From Dehalococcoidales bacterium (lineage in GTDB: Bacteria > Chloroflexota > Dehalococcoidia > Dehalococcoidales > RBG-16-60-22), in contig JADHXF010000025.1 of NCBI GenBank assembly GCA_016783105.1, forward strand, positions 1 to 21,242: DNA of 21,242 nt. Direction: 5' to 3'. The position numbers were made by a program, and so were the translations under genes. Position 1 is the first letter of the stretch. Every line of letters begins with the position of its first letter. Shown one piece after another: positions 12,759-20,848 of this stretch. The notes beneath the pieces were generated by a model, which was not told the origin of the DNA, ran no database searches, and saw nothing but the letters and a program-made list of their open reading frames with translations.

Positions 12759-14369
12759 TTACCCCCAGAGCTCTTCGATGTCCTTCTCTGCCTGCTCCCC
12801 GCCTCCGGCCTTTCCGGCGGTGAGAAATTCCTGATAGGACTTTGGTGAGCCGTATTCCCTCGTTCTGATGACCACCGGCATCGGTACGGCATGCCCGAAA
12901 ATAAGGGCCTGCTGCTTCGATTCCAGCCTGGAAAGCACCGATTTCAGCGCGCTTTTGCCGGAGACGCCGGCGAGGACGCTGTCAATATCCCGCTCGTTGT
13001 CCAGCAGGCAGGTGATCTTGGTGCCCATCTGCGACATCACCTCGGTATCTATGCCGCTGGGGCGCTGGTCAATGACCAGCAGCGTTACGTTGTATTTCCT
13101 CATCTCGCGGGCGATGGTGCCGAAAATGGTCCTCCCGGCAACCTCCGGATTGAGAAAACGGTGCGCCTCCTCAATGGTGATAACCAGCGGTGTCGGTTTG
13201 ACGGTATCTTCACCCATCGCTTTCTCCATCCGGTCGCGATACTGGGCGTGTATCCGCCGGGTGAGCAGGTTGGCTACCAGAATGTAGGCGGTGATATCCG
13301 TGTAGCGGCCAAACTCCAGGACAACGTTTATGCCCCGGTCAAGGTATTCCAGAATGCGTTTGACCGCATTATCCGGCGCCTGGGGCTCGATAAAGGGGAG
13401 CCGGCTCACCGTGGCCAGCCCCCTTCTCAGGTTCTGGAAGGTGCTCTCGTGGATACTCAGTTCGTTCAGCAGTTTGCTGGTTTCCTCAGAATCGGACAGG
13501 TCGGCGGCCTGCTGCAACCAGTTTTTACCAAATCGACGACTTAACTGGTAAATGGCTTCCACCGCCGGCTCGGTCAAGTTCAAAGTCTGGCGCAGCAACG
13601 ACATGTCTTCCGGCTCAATCTCATCGTAGCCAATTTTCACCACGAAGTCGGTGCTCACCTTTCGCCTTCGGGAGCTTTCCTCGTCAAGGGTGAACACCGC
13701 CACCTTCGAGGGGAAGAGCTGTTTCAATGCCTTGACGGAACGCCCCCCCTCGCTTGTCCCCGCCCAGCCGTACTCGTTATGCATGTCGAATATCAGATTC
13801 ACCGCAGCGCTCTTCTGCAGCATACCGATGAGCAATATGCGGGTGAGGAAAGTCTTGCCCGTGCCGCTCTTGCCGAAGATGCCGTTGGAGCGCTTGACCA
13901 GTTCCGGCAGGTCGAGGCATATCCTGGTCTCCATATCCAGCGGCGTGCCGACGTAGAACCGTTTTTCGTCCTCGCCGCCAAAGACAAGCTCCACATCCTG
14001 CTGCGTCGCCAGTTTGACCGCCGAGAAATGAGTTGGTACGGTCTTCACCGGCTGCGGCCCCTCGATAAGGCTGGCCACGTCTCCGCTGATGGTGAGCATG
14101 GGCAGCACGTGGAGGGTGCCGTAGGTGCTCGTCCCGGAGAGCACCTCGGAAATAAACGGGTCGGAAATATCCGGCGGCGTCAGGGTAAATCGGGGGTCGA
14201 TGACGCCCAGCCCGATATCGGTAATCATGCCGAAAAATCTCTGCTTTTGCCCTTCAATGGTGACATATCTCCCCACCGCCATATCCTCCACCGATACTGC
14301 ACCATCGAGCTTGACTTCAACCCCACTCTCCAGCGAACCGGAGACTACGACTCCCAATCTTTCCGTCAT
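12759..14369 (-). CDS. HerA-like ATPase with N-terminal HAS-barrel
   Basis: 536-aa hexameric-type DNA-translocating ATPase of the HerA/FtsK group (DUF87). The N-terminal about 60 residues look like a HAS-barrel. Walker A GKSGTGKT is at 166-173, Walker B VITIEEAH at 396-403, and a sensor-like IDQRPS at 433-438. The C-terminal SQMGTKITCLLDNERD is typical. In archaea HerA works with NurA in DNA end resection. Here there is no NurA; its ATG instead overlaps the stop of a small HAS-barrel-like protein by 4 bases, suggesting a coupled two-protein complex. A repair or DNA-processing role is inferred. Confidence 0.88.
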   Translation of the reverse strand: MTERLGVVVSGSLESGVEVKLDGAVSVEDMAVGRYVTIEGQKQRFFGMITDIGLGVIDPRFTLTPPDISDPFISEVLSGTSTYGTLHVLPMLTISGDVASLIEGPQPVKTVPTHFSAVKLATQQDVELVFGGEDEKRFYVGTPLDMETRICLDLPELVKRSNGIFGKSGTGKTFLTRILLIGMLQKSAAVNLIFDMHNEYGWAGTSEGGRSVKALKQLFPSKVAVFTLDEESSRRRKVSTDFVVKIGYDEIEPEDMSLLRQTLNLTEPAVEAIYQLSRRFGKNWLQQAADLSDSEETSKLLNELSIHESTFQNLRRGLATVSRLPFIEPQAPDNAVKRILEYLDRGINVVLEFGRYTDITAYILVANLLTRRIHAQYRDRMEKAMGEDTVKPTPLVITIEEAHRFLNPEVAGRTIFGTIAREMRKYNVTLLVIDQRPSGIDTEVMSQMGTKITCLLDNERDIDSVLAGVSGKSALKSVLSRLESKQQALIFGHAVPMPVVIRTREYGSPKSYQEFLTAGKAGGGEQAEKDIEELWG

Positions 14370-14959
14370 TTCAGCCTCCCCAGAATCGCCCGGAGCTGAT
14401 TATACTGCCCGCCGAGCATGACCGCCAGTTCCTTGCCCGCCGCCACCAGAAAAGCGTGCGGGTCTGCCTGCGCCCCGCTCATCAAGCGCAGGACGGCGGG
14501 TATGATTTCATCTATGGACACGGGCAGATGGGCGCTCACCAGAATATCTAAAAAGCCCAGCGACCGGCCGAACTCCCTTACCTCGTCGGGCGGGCAGTGA
14601 TGGACAAAGCCGTGGATGCGCGCCGGGCCGGGCGGCAGGTACTGATAGATGTTATCTCCTTTCCGGTGCCCCACCACCAGCGCCCCGAACTCGCTGCGGA
14701 GCAGCTTGGAAAGCTGGGGGCTGGACTGGTAGATGGCCTCCTCGCTCTCTTCATCTTTGCCTCGGGCGATGGGTCGGCGCCCCGGCTCCAGGCTGCCGGT
14801 GGTGGCATGGCAGACGATGCCGTAGATGTCCAGCTCGCCGTCTTTCGTCTTCACCAGGCTGCCCAGCGGCGGAAGCTCATAGAGCTCATAGCACTGCGCC
14901 ACAAAGCTGGCGGTGCTGGCCTCGATTATCTCGCCAACTCGGTCAGATGGTTCAGCCAT
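14366..14959 (-). CDS. HAS-barrel-like partner protein of the HerA ATPase
   Basis: 197-aa protein with an N-terminal stretch RVGEIIEASTASFVAQCYEL followed by ELPPLGSLV that resembles the HAS-barrel seen in HerA and ATP-synthase-like proteins, and then an uncharacterised helical C-terminus with no nuclease motif that I recognise. ATG 14959 follows GGGGATGGAG. It overlaps herA by 4 bases, so the two are made together. It might be an adaptor or regulatory subunit. The serine-recombinase pseudogene ends just 21 bases upstream. Confidence 0.7.
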   Translation of the reverse strand: MAEPSDRVGEIIEASTASFVAQCYELYELPPLGSLVKTKDGELDIYGIVCHATTGSLEPGRRPIARGKDEESEEAIYQSSPQLSKLLRSEFGALVVGHRKGDNIYQYLPPGPARIHGFVHHCPPDEVREFGRSLGFLDILVSAHLPVSIDEIIPAVLRLMSGAQADPHAFLVAAGKELAVMLGGQYNQLRAILGRLK

Positions 14960-15117
14960 TATTTACTAACTCCATCCCCTTTATCCCCCTCGGTGGATTG
15001 GATGCAATTGCTCACCCATAGGTATGATGGTTAGAATTTCAATACTTTGTCCATTATAGAGTATTTTTCTACCAGAAGTCTCAATAGTTCTTGCTTGCCG
15101 GTAAAGTCAAGGTTTTC

Positions 15118-15125
15118 CAACTCTA
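15118..15125. repeat. Target-site duplication, left copy
   Basis: CAACTCTA, identical to 15733-15740, immediately outside the left terminal repeat of the 607-bp element. Confidence 0.8.
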
Positions 15126-15129
15126 GGTT

Positions 15130-15660
15130 CTACTCAATCTTGGTTGTTGCCGATGTTTTATCTGTGACTTTTCCATTAACATTGTTTTTAGCTTCTAACC
15201 TTTTAATAATATCTGAATATTCATTAACAAGTTTATTGTTTTGACGAATGAGCTTATTGTTTTGCTTTATTAATACACCAAGTATATTCCGATATTTTTT
15301 TATGTTTGCCTCTCGCTCTATTGGAGTTATTGCCGCCAAAAGATACGGAGGCCAAGATTCGTCATATTCAACTAGCTCCCCAAATTTGGCACGCCAAAGT
15401 AGTTTAAGAAGATTTAATAGTGAATAGATACCCATTGCAACAAAGAACAATACGATAATACTCCCTAATATGTATAGGAACCATTGGAAGGCGGATAATT
15501 CTAACATACTCCACCATCCCCACACGGGTTTTCCAAGTTCGATAACAATAATAGAGCAAAAGGCAAATATTGCGAGCCATGTTTGAAGATTATGGGTGAG
15601 CATGAGAGTAGAGCCTGCTTCTTTTCTACGTTTAAAAGCTTTGTAAATTCCTTGTGGCAT
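15130..15660 (-). CDS. Two-helix membrane protein with C-terminal coiled coil; element cargo
   Basis: 176-aa protein of unrecognised family. After a basic N-terminus (KAFKRRKEAG) come two hydrophobic segments at about 27-43 and 60-88, separated by a Trp-rich loop (PVWGWWSML). A charged region with ESWPPYLLAAITP follows, then a coiled-coil-like stretch rich in Asn, Lys and Ile (about 117-158, with repeated KQNNKL and RQNNKL). ATG 15660 is preferred over ATG 15678 because AAAGGG lies 6 bases before it and the predicted transcript starts close to 15683. The stop lies inside the left terminal repeat. No enzyme motif is visible; function is unknown. The low GC content fits foreign origin. Confidence 0.65.
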   Translation of the reverse strand: MPQGIYKAFKRRKEAGSTLMLTHNLQTWLAIFAFCSIIVIELGKPVWGWWSMLELSAFQWFLYILGSIIVLFFVAMGIYSLLNLLKLLWRAKFGELVEYDESWPPYLLAAITPIEREANIKKYRNILGVLIKQNNKLIRQNNKLVNEYSDIIKRLEAKNNVNGKVTDKTSATTKIE

Positions 15661-15689
15661 CTTAATCCCTTTATCCATTGGTTAAGAGG

Positions 15690-15718
15690 ATTATATACCC
15701 TTGAGAGCCACAAACCAA
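15690..15718 (-). promoter_or_regulatory. Promoter of the element cargo, partly in the terminal repeat
   Basis: Minus-strand TTGGTT (15713-15718), 17-base spacer, TATAAT (15690-15695). The -35 lies within the right terminal inverted repeat, so the element brings its own promoter. The -10 lies about 30 bases before the chosen ATG. Confidence 0.6.
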
Positions 15719-15732
15719 GATTGAGTAAAAGG

Positions 15733-15740
15733 CAACTCTA
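15733..15740. repeat. Target-site duplication, right copy
   Basis: CAACTCTA, identical to 15118-15125, directly next to the right terminal repeat of the 607-bp element, inside the recombinase codons for Ile-Glu-Leu. Confidence 0.8.
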
Positions 15741-16198
15741 TGTTAATCTTCTTTGCCAGGCTCTTAATATGGGCTTCCTGCTTTTGTGTCAGAAACCTCT
15801 GGGTAAGCTGCCTTTCCAGCTCAACCTTTCGCTTCTCCAATTCGCCTTGCTCTTTCTGGATAAGTTCCATATCCTCCCGCATCATAAAGTCAGCATATAG
15901 ACCTTTACGATAACCCTCCACTAATCGCCTCTGCTCGTCTGGTATTGCTTTTAACCTGGCCTGACAAAGTTGTAGTTCCCGCTCTAATATTTCCTTGGTC
16001 TGTGAATTGTCAGCATTACGGCGACGAAGCTCTTGGATAAGAAAGTCCGGATCTTTAATAAGCTGGCAAATTGTATTCCAGACTTCTGCTTCTATTGCCT
16101 CGCTTTTAATCTCAGGGCACGAACAAGGTTGAGGACTGCCATCTGGACCGAACGGAACCCTATCGGGATTGCCTTTCCGATAACAGTGGTAGTATGGG

Positions 16199-16393
16199 AT
16201 GCCACTAACTGCAGGCATGATTTCTGAGAGGTTTAATAAATTTATTGATAATACTGAATTGCTATTAACCTCGGCGATGGGACTGCCCAATAGCTTGGTG
16301 GTTGTTAGACATCGCTTAAAAGGGCTCACAGAACAAGCCCAAGATACTGCAAAAGGCTTAAATAAGATTCTGGAAAACTTGAAGGTAAAGTAG
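16199..16393 (+). CDS. Small ORF in a truncated sister element (uncertain)
   Basis: 64-aa frame of hydrophilic, helix-rich character ending RHRLKGLTEQAQDTAKGLNKILENLKVK. It starts at the point where recombinase homology on the other strand stops (about 16212) and ends 20 bases before the terminal repeat at 16413. Internal ATG 16217 is an alternative start; neither has a good ribosome site. It may be the 3' end of a cargo gene whose 5' part was lost. No family is recognised and it may not be expressed. The overlapping long minus-strand frame in this stretch is rich in Phe and Leu and looks like its shadow. Confidence 0.3.
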   Translation: MPLTAGMISERFNKFIDNTELLLTSAMGLPNSLVVVRHRLKGLTEQAQDTAKGLNKILENLKVK

Positions 16394-16412
16394 AATAATA
16401 TGAATAGTAAAG

Positions 16413-16435
16413 AACAACTAAGATTGAGTAGAACC
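16413..16435. repeat. Third copy of the terminal inverted repeat
   Basis: Reading inward on the minus strand from 16435 the sequence is GGTTCTACTCAATCTTAGTT and continues GTT; it matches the left end of the 607-bp element at 22 of 23 bases. It marks the right end of a related, left-truncated element covering about 16213-16435. No matching 8-bp target duplication was found for it. Confidence 0.7.
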
Positions 16436-16450
16436 GAGGCTTGCATTCAT

Positions 16451-16480
16451 TTGACGAAGAGGCTTTCTTTAGTGTATAAT
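16451..16480 (+). promoter_or_regulatory. Sigma70-type promoter of the zinc-ribbon gene
   Basis: TTGACG (16451-16456), 18-base spacer, perfect TATAAT (16475-16480). The start is expected near 16487, leaving an AT-rich leader of about 110 bases before the ATG at 16597. It is the best promoter match on the plus strand in the accessory region. Confidence 0.7.
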
Positions 16481-16596: not shown

Positions 16597-16923
16597 ATGA
16601 GTTTTCAGGACAAGACCATCGAATGTTCCGATTGCGGTAATACTTTTACCTTTAGCGCTGAGGAACAGGAACAGTTTCAGTCGAGAGGCTATACCAACGA
16701 ACCCAAACGCTGTCCCGATTGCCGTCAAGCTAGGAAAGCACGACAGTACGGAAACAGCGACAATAGCTATGGTAATAATAGCCACGGCTATACCCCCCGA
16801 CGCCAAATGTTCCCTACAGTGTGCTCCGAGTGTGGCAAGGAAACTGAAGTACCGTTTGAACCCCGTGAGGGCAGACCTGTGTATTGCAGTGATTGCTACC
16901 GTAAAGTCAGAGTAAGCAGTTAA
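16597..16923 (+). CDS. Double zinc-ribbon protein with CxxC-x17-CxxC domain
   Basis: 108-aa protein with two Cys4 zinc sites. The N-terminal one is CSDC-x25-CPDC, like the 'probable zinc-ribbon' (zf-trcl) family, and starts at about residue 10. The C-terminal one is CSECGKETEVPFEP to YCSDC, exactly CxxC-x17-CxxC, a module known as a stand-alone or repeated domain in many environmental bacteria and archaea. A Gly/Ser/Asn/Tyr-rich linker (YGNSDNSYGNNSHGY) joins them. A GAGGAGGT ribosome site precedes ATG 16597. The flexible basic linker suggests nucleic-acid or protein binding, but the role is unknown. Confidence 0.85.
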   Translation: MSFQDKTIECSDCGNTFTFSAEEQEQFQSRGYTNEPKRCPDCRQARKARQYGNSDNSYGNNSHGYTPRRQMFPTVCSECGKETEVPFEPREGRPVYCSDCYRKVRVSS

Positions 16924-17440: not shown

Positions 17441-17811
17441 TGACCTGCCCCAAGTAATTGTACCACTTTCTAAGTTAGAGTTGCCGGCATAATTACTGGC
17501 ATTATAGCTTCAAGAGCGGGTGGTCGATAGCGTAAAGCACTATGTGACCGTATCCGATTATACTCTTCAGCCATTCCCCTATCAATCCCCTTGCCTCTAG
17601 CTTTGTGTAAGCTAGTAATGCTACTGCTACAAACAGATAAATAGGCTTTGCCTGGAGTGCTAGAAAGCAACACAATTGCAATTACAGAGTAACCTGATAT
17701 AAAAGGATTAGTTGATTTTGGTAGTGTGGGGGTGAGCTGCCGTCAGTGGATATTGTGATCGTGACTGTAGTGTTTCTATGCATAATTGAATCAGTTTTTT
17801 GAGGCAGGTCA
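17441..17811 (-). mobile_element. Internally deleted IS3-family element (371 bp)
   Basis: The ends are inverted: TGACCTGCCCC at 17441 and GGCAGGTCA ending at 17811, which reads inward as TGACCTGCCTCAAAAAA. The latter resembles the left end of the larger IS3 element at 19627 (TGGCCTGCCCCCCAAAAA). Inside are only the last codons of a transposase, read on the minus strand, so most of the element has been deleted while both tips remain. No clear target duplication is seen beside it. Such MITE-like forms could be moved by a related transposase. Confidence 0.7.
17470..17574 (-). pseudogene. IS3-type transposase OrfB, C-terminal fragment
   Basis: The minus-strand frame encodes EEYNRIRSHSALRYRPPALE, which is the hallmark end of IS3/IS481-group integrase-core transposases (consensus EYNxxRPHSxLGYRPPxPE). 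It then runs to a stop at 17470, 26 bases from the element tip. The catalytic DDE part is missing. The frame is open further upstream but shows no transposase similarity there. Confidence 0.8.
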
Positions 17812-19694: not shown

Positions 19695-19973
19695 ATGGTC
19701 AAGAAATCGCATTCTCCGGAGCAGGTCATCAACAAGCTGCGCGAAGCTGAGATCCTGCTGAATCAAGGAGCTAGCGTCGGCGAAGCCTGCCGGAAGATAG
19801 GTATCACCGAACAGACGTACTATCGGTGGCGTAGAGAGTACGGCGGTATGCGGGTTGAGCAGGCAAAACGGCTAAAAGATCTGGAGAAGGAGAATGTCCG
19901 GCTCAAGAAGCTGGTAGCCGACATCTCCCTGGATAATGCCATTCTGAAAGAGGCGGCGGAGGGAAACTTCTAA
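19695..19973 (+). CDS. IS3-family transposase OrfA
   Basis: 92-aa DNA-binding part of the transposase. It starts MVKKSHSPEQVINKLREAEI and has a helix-turn-helix (GASVGEACRKIGITEQTYYRWR) and a leucine-zipper-like helix (RLKDLEKENVRLKKLVADISLDN), ending KEAAEGNF. ATG 19695 follows AAAGGGGG. Its last sense codons overlap the GGGAAAC slippery site from which OrfB is read. Confidence 0.93.
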   Translation: MVKKSHSPEQVINKLREAEILLNQGASVGEACRKIGITEQTYYRWRREYGGMRVEQAKRLKDLEKENVRLKKLVADISLDNAILKEAAEGNF

Positions 19974-20040
19974 GCCCGTCAAAGAGACGCAAGTCCATTC
20001 TGTGTGTACAGAGGAAGCTTGGCGTCTCCGAGAGGCGGGC
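19961..20040 (+). promoter_or_regulatory. Programmed -1 frameshift signal of the IS3 transposase
   Basis: Slippery heptamer G GGA AAC (19961-19967) in the orfA frame is followed by TTC and the TAA stop. Six bases after it a nested stem begins: GCCCG (19974-19978) with CGGGC (20036-20040), GAGACGC (19984-19990) with GCGTCTC (20022-20028), and an inner CTGT/ACAG hairpin. A shift of -1 enters the orfB frame as GKLLSPSKRR. Confidence 0.8.
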
Positions 20041-20044
20041 GTGT

Positions 20045-20848
20045 ATGGTAGTTGGTCAGGCCAGAAAGACGCAGCGGCGTACCCCACGTATAACGGACGA
20101 GGAGGAATGGCTAAGAGCCCGGATCATTGAACTGGCGACCCGGTATGGCAGGTATGGTTATCGCAGGATTACGGCATTACTCAATCAGAATCCAAAGGAA
20201 CATCCGGTGAATCACAAGAGGGTGGAAGGACTGAAGGTGCCAAAGAAGCAACCGAAACGAAGAAGGCTGTGGCTCAATGACGGATCGTGTATCAGACTCC
20301 GTCCACAGCACAAGGATCATGTCTGGAGCTATGATTTCGTCATGGCATGGACTACCAATGGCAAAGCCTTTCGAATACTCGTAATCATTGACGAATACAC
20401 TCGGGAATGCCTGGTAATGATGGTGGCCCGGCATATTACATCTGGGGATGTCATTGAACAGCTGTATGAGTTGTTTCTTTTGAGAGGAGTTCCTGAGCAT
20501 ATCAGATCAGACAATGGCCCTGAGTTTACCTCAAAGGCGGTGTGTAAGTGGTTGAATCGGGTCGCAGTGAAGACTCTGTTTATTGAACCCGGTAGCCCAT
20601 GGGAGAACGGTTACGTCGAATCACTCAACAGTAAACTGAGGGATGAATTACTGAATGGTGAGATCTTCACAACCCTGACCGAAGCGAAGGTATTGATTGA
20701 GCAATGGAGAAGGGAGTACAATCAGGTGCGTCCTCATAGCTCGCTTGGTTACCGGCATGCCAGGAGGGGGAATCGCGGGTGGCTGCCAACACCTTTGACA
20801 CAATACTGGATAATATTTCCAAAAAACGAGACGTTAGAAAAATGTTAG
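20045..20848 (+). CDS. IS3-family transposase OrfB, integrase core, damaged
   Basis: Catalytic half of the transposase. The DDE triad is seen at Asp97 (WSYDFV), Asp156 (RSDNGPEF) and Glu192 (ENGYVESLNSKLRDEL), with the standard 35-residue DE spacing. It should be made as an OrfAB fusion, because the frame is open back to the slippery site and encodes SKRRKSILCVQRKLGVSERRA before ATG 20045. Two defects appear: the usual stretch between HKRV and EGLKVPKK seems about six residues short, and after PHSSLGYR the expected PPAPEA is replaced by HARRGNRGW. The gene is probably inactive. Confidence 0.85.
   Translation: MVVGQARKTQRRTPRITDEEEWLRARIIELATRYGRYGYRRITALLNQNPKEHPVNHKRVEGLKVPKKQPKRRRLWLNDGSCIRLRPQHKDHVWSYDFVMAWTTNGKAFRILVIIDEYTRECLVMMVARHITSGDVIEQLYELFLLRGVPEHIRSDNGPEFTSKAVCKWLNRVAVKTLFIEPGSPWENGYVESLNSKLRDELLNGEIFTTLTEAKVLIEQWRREYNQVRPHSSLGYRHARRGNRGWLPTPLTQYWIIFPKNETLEKC

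Follow-up and report, generated by a model that had tools for sequence, protein, structure and literature searches.

The IS6 family of insertion sequences (ISs) contains a branch of long members with a zinc finger, named clade h by Varani (2021) and clade VII by Harmer and Hall (2019). The accessible parts of the IS6 review (PMC7986276) give these zinc-finger members a length of 340-350 aa and describe two MITEs and one passenger-bearing member. The latter is ISDsp3 from Dehalococcoides BAV1, whose passenger is a hypothetical gene. In the available part of another paper (PMC6807381), ISDsp3 is 1456 bp and 319 aa long, has an 8-bp duplication, and lies outside the clades without an intact zinc finger. 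On insertion preference or non-autonomous elements we found nothing in the accessible parts of the review, where specificity appears in reference titles only. Elements that carry cargo in place of a transposase are known as mobile insertion cassettes (MICs), and insertion at a fixed distance from promoters has been described for TnGBS and ISLre2 (p-MULT 3) and for part of ISKra4 (p-MULT 4), which insert 15-17 bp upstream of the -35 box (Guerillot 2014; PMC3942029, available part).

Here we analysed a stretch of 21,242 nucleotides from a Dehalococcoidales bacterium (contig JADHXF010000025.1), hereafter the window. It holds a 607-bp unit that we consider, with a probability of about 0.8, to be a mobile insertion cassette of IS6-type descent. 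The whole analysis is inference from sequence, largely from metagenome-assembled genomes (MAGs). The unit has the anatomy of a MIC, with inverted repeats, the CAACTCTA duplication and a cargo gene instead of a transposase. In inverted repeats, duplication, cargo and lack of a transposase it resembles MIC231A1 and mic-qnrD as described in the available part of PMC3913671, but those belong to other IS families, whereas here several cargoes occur under one tip family. Compared with the reviewed IS6 elements, the differences are frequent and closely coupled passengers, cargo-only cassettes and promoter-biased insertion; for ISDsp3 this is a comparison by description alone. The tips differ as well. 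IS6 tips begin with GG at both ends and carry cTGTt and caaa motifs (PMC7986276, accessible parts). In the window the left (L) tip begins with GG, whereas the right (R) tip begins with CC and the motifs are absent. The features of the locus are as follows.

14960-15117, minus strand: flank past the insertion, as used in the join; the adjoining part encodes ENLDFTGKQELLRLLVEK, then the frame breaks
15105-15110, minus strand: TTGACT, -35-like, 15 bp outside the L tip of the 607-bp copy; -10 weak, 3 of 6
15118-15125, no strand: left target-site duplication CAACTCTA, an exact repeat
15126-15145, plus strand: L tip GGTTCTACTCAATCTTGGTT, holding the final codons and stop of the cargo
15130-15660, minus strand: cargo coding sequence, 176 aa; 182 aa from an earlier ATG at 15678
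15690-15718, minus strand: promoter-like TTGGTT-N17-TATAAT into the cargo, its -35 within the R tip; the geometry is the same in the L044 cassette
15713-15732, minus strand: R tip CCTTTTACTCAATCTTGGTT, from the comparison of tips
15733-15740, no strand: right target-site duplication CAACTCTA, an exact repeat
15741-16215, minus strand: putative recombinase remnant upstream of the insertion, without its N-terminal part, from a sub-threshold Zn_ribbon_recom match and the translation
16216-16435, no strand: second, truncated family copy with an approximate left boundary
16416-16435, minus strand: L tip GGTTCTACTCAATCTTAGTT of the truncated copy, the third match to the tip core
16451-16480, plus strand: TTGACG-N18-TATAAT, 15 bp outside the tip of the truncated copy and upstream of a zinc-finger gene at 16597-16923

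The initial annotation of this DNA had reported a 607-bp insertion with inverted tips identical at 17 of 18 bases and an exact 8-bp duplication, and this description held. The inverted arms (15128-15145 and 15713-15730) are 94% complementary over 18 nt. Exact copies of CAACTCTA flank them on both sides, and the element is therefore placed at 15126-15732. An extra copy of CAACTCTA lies at 17476 on the minus strand, where about 0.5 would be expected by chance. The tip core TACTCAATCTTRGTT was found three times in the window, every match being exact in a search that allowed up to two mismatches. Shuffled sequences gave a mean of 0.04 matches per shuffle (n=100) and none held three copies. The L and R tips are asymmetric, as their outer five bases are unlike. 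Like this asymmetry, the third tip (16435) went unnoticed in the earlier reading. It belongs to the truncated copy, which adjoins the recombinase remnant and contains the end of another ORF (16199-16393, plus strand). We rejected the outer pair 15126-16435 as a single 1310-bp element, for which no duplication was found (the best had 3 mismatches, with shifted ends).

The flanks joined by script with one duplication read ...KKINIELENLDFTGKQELLRLLVEK... in frame, as proposed. The frame continues across the insertion, and the possibility that the recombinase naturally contains this stretch of about 600 bp was not borne out. The interrupted gene looks like a serine recombinase on a Zn_ribbon_recom match below the Pfam cut-off (E 0.049) and on motifs that we take to be those of serine recombinases. 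It is broken independently of the insertion, with its N-terminal part absent and the frame breaking after LLVEK, and it was already nonfunctional, apart from the 607-bp insertion. The element was initially placed inside a serine recombinase. The in-frame join supports this placement, but the gene is a remnant and its identity is that of a probable recombinase. A phage search for intact relatives of the interrupted gene gave no match.

The ORF at 15130-15678 (minus strand) encodes, as first reported, a single membrane protein with two hydrophobic helices by a hydropathy window, and no transposase. The 176-aa coding sequence is likelier than the 182-aa form because four relatives begin at the second ATG. 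These relatives, from the protein database and metagenomes, are 44-49% identical to the cargo. Its AlphaFold model has two long helices and a long C-terminal helix, but its confidence is low, with a pLDDT of 60 from either 2 or 5 sequences. The C-terminus extends 5-13 alignment columns past the four relatives and ends in tip codons, which would fit a deletion that fused the cargo gene to the L tip. The claim that the cargo has its own promoter agrees with the promoter-like sequence read from 15718 to 15690. The idea of the same internal promoter geometry in every tip was dropped, since the TATAAT spacing fits the window and L044 and not most ISs.

Searches with the cargo gave little. Against 47 other passenger and cargo proteins (P0003 was not in the set) the best phmmer E value was 0.15, and no homology was detected. 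Viral contigs held no relatives of the cargo and no exact L tip, and plasmids no match for the 607-bp element. Across the class, 1 of 393 genomes had a match, a weak fragment with an internal stop (E 4e-4).

The tips were found elsewhere. An exact contig scan with GGNTCTACTCAATCTTNGTT returned seven loci, six in Dehalococcoidia/Chloroflexi MAGs and one in an archaeal MAG, which we took as a chance match. With up to three mismatches there were more matches in three of the seven genomes (G001, G002 and G006); the reversed control gave one, in G001. The exact 20-mer of the window L tip is present also in L001, L004, L005 and L006. Among the 393 class genomes the L tip (up to two mismatches) was found in 4 and its reversed pattern in 1, and the R tip in 10 and its reversed pattern in 4. 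Since reversed patterns also match, some single tip matches may be due to chance. Within a family of 31 genomes, 6 had the L tip at up to two mismatches (reversed-pattern control 0) and 8 had the R tip (one control match). Across the tip family, the outer five bases are GGTTC at the L tip versus CCTTT, CTTTT or CTTAT at the R tip. The initial annotation would have been undermined by tips present at no other locus; they recur in several Dehalococcoidia MAGs.

We tabulated 19 paired elements, counting once the L040 insertion, which lies at an identical site in G304 and G405. The 8-bp duplication is perfect in seven (window, L002, L005, L040, L057, L062 and L068) and matches at 7 of 8 positions in four (L006, L016, L025 and L053), so further copies with differing duplications, the support sought at the outset, do exist. 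It was not clear in the other eight (L001, L019, L020, L023, L041, L048, L066, and L044, where it was seen with shifted ends only). Thirteen of the 19 are 59-182 bp long with almost no content (MITEs), and L048 is 329 bp long. ORFs were taken as cargo in five elements, all oriented from the R to the L tip.

Window element, 15126-15732: membrane protein
L002: 209-aa protein with one helix above threshold, and a 74-aa ORF
L005: 59-aa ORF with one helix
L041: 126-aa membrane protein
L044: 421-aa N6/N4 methyltransferase

Other cargoes between the same tips had been named as something to look for; they are membrane proteins in three elements besides that of the window and a methyltransferase in L044. 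Mechanically called ORFs overlap some of the cargo ORFs (e.g. a 182-aa ORF on the opposite strand in L002), and for this reason only the methyltransferase and the window protein have the backing of homologues. The R end of the window element (15682-15732) is 86% identical to that of the L044 cassette over 51 bp, and 89% identical to that of L041 over 37 bp. These cassettes therefore have leader and tips in common.

Two loci of G254 were observed beside this set. L078 5990-7820 may be an element of 1831 bp: one tip is R-like and one L-like, the duplication has 2 mismatches and a 425-aa ORF lies inside. It was left out of the counts. We take this ORF to resemble a serpin-type inhibitor with a signal sequence. 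In L079 (4473-6122) a 549-aa methyltransferase with an Mrr-like tail adjoins an R tip. It points toward the R tip, unlike the other cargoes, and no L tip was seen there.

Transposases with related tips were found in other genomes. In G405 a DDE transposase fragment of 198 aa (P0004) stands at a contig end, and 38 bp separate its stop codon from a family tip (the CTTATT variant). It matches PF13610, the IS240-type DDE domain, with 43.6 bits (cut-off 27). The fragment matched 14 of the 31 family genomes at E<=0.001, and the weakest of these matches are probably other transposases. A full-length relative from G314 matched 35 of the 393 class genomes at E<=1e-20 and, in a phylum scan, 10 of 311 genomes at E<=1e-30. 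Nine of these ten were already in the class list, so the phylum scan is no fresh independent set. Plasmids gave no match to the L104 transposase at E<=1e-30. The L104 tips, CCTTTTGTTCAATCTTGCGT and GGTTCTGTTCAATCTTCGGT, were read by eye and have the same asymmetry as those of the window. Its duplication, also read by eye, is imperfect (6 of 8), and its 109-aa two-helix protein overlaps the 311-aa transposase by 8 bp. The expectation of a full-length IS with these tips was borne out in part: there are transposase-bearing relatives, but no intact IS bearing exactly both window tips was found, as the L104 tips have diverged and the G405 transposase is a fragment. As an observation on assembly, five ends of four G405 contigs (C5, C16, C38 and C41) lie about 90-171 bp from a tip. 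The inner sequence of C16, C41 and one C5 end starts out the same, which is what a multi-copy IS collapsed by the assembler should produce.

The transposase set comprised 65 distinct ORFs of at least 230 aa, and at 32 of the 65 loci there is a perfect 8-bp duplication next to tips with no more than 5 mismatches in 20. Five full-length transposases and the P0004 fragment were scanned with NCBIfam models, and IS6 was the best model for all six. Against NF033587 (IS6, cut-off 125 bits) L104 scored 135.6 and L118 125.9; below the cut-off were L126 (118.9), L105 (117.6), L128 (104.1) and the fragment (56.8). ISLre2 and ISKra4 models were absent among the matches listed for the six (E<=0.01; E<=0.1). 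An N-terminal zinc ribbon was matched in four of the five full-length proteins, L128 being the one without. The partner transposases, mostly 300-370 aa long, resemble the long zinc-finger IS6 members in this length and zinc ribbon as well as in the 8-bp duplication and the IS240-type DDE domain. Membership in IS1595, considered from the 8-bp duplication, was dropped when the L097 transposase matched IS240/IS6 models. The window element is called IS6-derived because of its tip-sharing relatives only. Tips, duplication, copies with other cargoes and transposase-bearing relatives together bear out the initial annotation of a cargo-only mobile element.

Many of these transposases are accompanied by a membrane-protein ORF. 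An upstream ORF with a predicted helix lies within -60 to +40 bp of 33 of the 65 transposases (37 of 65 with either side counted), compared with 3 of the 24 control genes, which are other large ORFs from these loci. The count used a simple hydropathy-window helix predictor and a small control, and transposases near a locus edge were kept, whereas control genes were accepted only from 400 bp inward. The passenger membrane proteins form a diverse set, with 10 pairs listed at E<=1e-3 among 48 sequences and the window protein in none of them. In L111 and L128 a methyltransferase gene, 62% identical to that of L044, stands directly 3' of the transposase. The gene order there is membrane protein, transposase, DNA methyltransferase, with ends overlapping or close. 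In L111 all three genes lie between tips with a perfect duplication, while the ends of L128 were not found; the coupling count takes the L111 methyltransferase only, because the L128 ORF reaches the locus end. The L111 tips (GGCAAAGTACA...) are quite unlike those of the window and L128 is without a zinc ribbon, so these two belong to another subgroup than the presumed parent of the window element, which speaks against one common parent. Cassettes and ISs have gene types in common, the methyltransferase genes being homologous across subgroups.

The cargo could instead be a host gene for fitness, defence or a toxin-like function, captured between IS-derived ends and spread as cargo. Its four metagenome relatives make it seem a real conserved protein, and a methyltransferase among related cargoes would suit defence or self-protection. 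However, the window cargo had no match in Pfam above the cut-off, none in the PADLOC defence families at E<=1 and none in NCBIfam at E<=0.1, so the initial suggestion of a fitness, defence or toxin gene found no backing in these databases. Membrane-protein ORFs also recur beside related transposases, which makes the assumption of capture unnecessary, and we regard a captured gene as unlikely. Since the related ISs often have such a coupled ORF, we consider it likelier that the gene descends from an IS accessory gene, although no homology to the sampled passengers was detected, and the cargo is best read as an accessory gene that would have outlived its transposase. As to function, our working guess is that it regulates or tethers transposition, a guess to which we give somewhat less than even odds. 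A defence or toxin role ranks below this and is doubtful.

The insertion sites of both cassettes and ISs are concentrated 15 bp upstream of sequences that resemble -35/-10 promoters. The motif GTCAA was seen on one or both flanks, with its start 18-21 bases (mostly 20) outside the tip, in 12 of the 19 paired elements, at 9 of 22 single tips and in 16 of 32 ISs, compared with 0.9% at random positions in the same loci. Another 11 weaker single tips had been left out by eye, none with the motif (9 of 33 with these included), and these target counts cover the 32 transposase loci with clear tips and duplication, leaving aside the other 33 of the 65. The GTCAA within 40 bases outside the tips begins at exactly 20 in 31 of 48 cases. 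In the outward direction the motif reads TTGAC(A) and stands 15 bases from the tip. A occupies the sixth position in 24 of 38 TTGAC flanks, versus 156 of the 614 TTGAC sites that these loci contain. A -10 box matching at 4 of 6 positions or better follows at 16-18 bp in 29 of the 38 flanks, versus about 23% of the 614 sites, the 38 included.

We also scanned 72 insertions offset by offset (L048 had too little flank and is omitted). At offset 15 both boxes match at least 4 of 6 in 27 of the 72; over offsets 0-11 and 19-94 this count averages 0.92 and never exceeds 5, and it is 5 at offset 14 and 1 at offset 16. The mean promoter score is 7.43 at offset 15 versus 4.60 (sd 0.25) over the same background, with intermediate values at offsets 14 (5.64) and 16 (5.42). 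The spike occurs in each class, in 7 of 18 paired elements, 9 of 22 single tips and 11 of 32 ISs. The test is post hoc, as the motif was first noticed on tip-family flanks; checks that are partly independent come from the ISs and from the -10 box.

The fixed distance upstream of -35 is thus a likeness to p-MULT 3/4, subject to the post hoc nature of the spike. Their transposases are Mutator-type, whereas those found here are IS6/IS240-type by model matches. Insertion of p-MULT 3 is oriented, while here the motif stands on either side (5' of the transposase in 11 ISs, 3' of it in 5), which is closer to the p-MULT 4 ISs (PMC3942029, available part). We found fixed-distance promoter targeting described only for Mutator-type transposases (TnGBS, ISLre2 and ISKra4), and no report of it for IS6 in a literature that mostly excludes subscription journals.

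The transposase might simply read TTGAC as a plain DNA motif, with RNA polymerase uninvolved. The 607-bp insertion itself has TTGACT as its motif, in a dead gene and with a weak -10, and at 9 of the 38 sites the -10 match falls short of 4 of 6, as such a reader would allow. But a plain motif reader needs no -10, and its enrichment over the other TTGAC sites speaks against this explanation, which we think improbable though not negligible. Survival bias, with insertions in genes lost and intergenic ones kept, is very improbable: promoters abound in intergenic DNA and 45 of 72 insertions are without both boxes at offset 15, but such a bias would not fix the distance at which GTCAA begins, nor raise the promoter score at a single offset so far above background. 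Recognition of the promoter or of its polymerase complex by the transposase would be consistent with both boxes at this distance.

The explanation that we propose is the following. A related IS would run from the promoter-end tip through a membrane-protein gene, the transposase and, in few cases, a DNA methyltransferase to the other tip. A cassette such as the 607-bp unit would have arisen by loss of the transposase with one accessory gene retained. The transposase of a relative would presumably recognise the cassette tips and mobilise it in trans. Its insertion would make the 8-bp duplication, with a preference for sites that precede a -35 box by about 15 bp. More broadly, and only tentatively, a Dehalococcoidia lineage of IS6-type elements might sense the RNA polymerase-promoter complex, with the coupled membrane proteins and methyltransferases serving as working parts in target choice, control or self-protection and also spreading alone as cassettes. 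If the promoter bias holds, fixed-distance promoter targeting would occur in a second, unrelated transposase family, and a comparison of the two might reveal how bacterial transposases locate promoters. With their passengers, these IS6-type elements would be seen no longer as one-gene ISs but as carriers of recurring, diverse membrane proteins, and they would show a route for small genes to spread as cassettes.

Several other features of these loci were observed. The gene at window 16597-16923 and that at L104 2180-2506 (G314) are small double zinc-finger genes (that of the window matching zf_Tbcl), each with a family element just upstream, and the two gene regions are 80% identical in DNA over 377 bp. 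Window 17440-17500 matches L131 at 84%. Downstream, at 19695-20848, are two IS3-like ORFs (HTH_Tnp_1 and integrase-core rve). A HerA-type helicase gene (DUF87) lies at 12759-14959, with an adjoining gene that has a weak HAS-barrel match.
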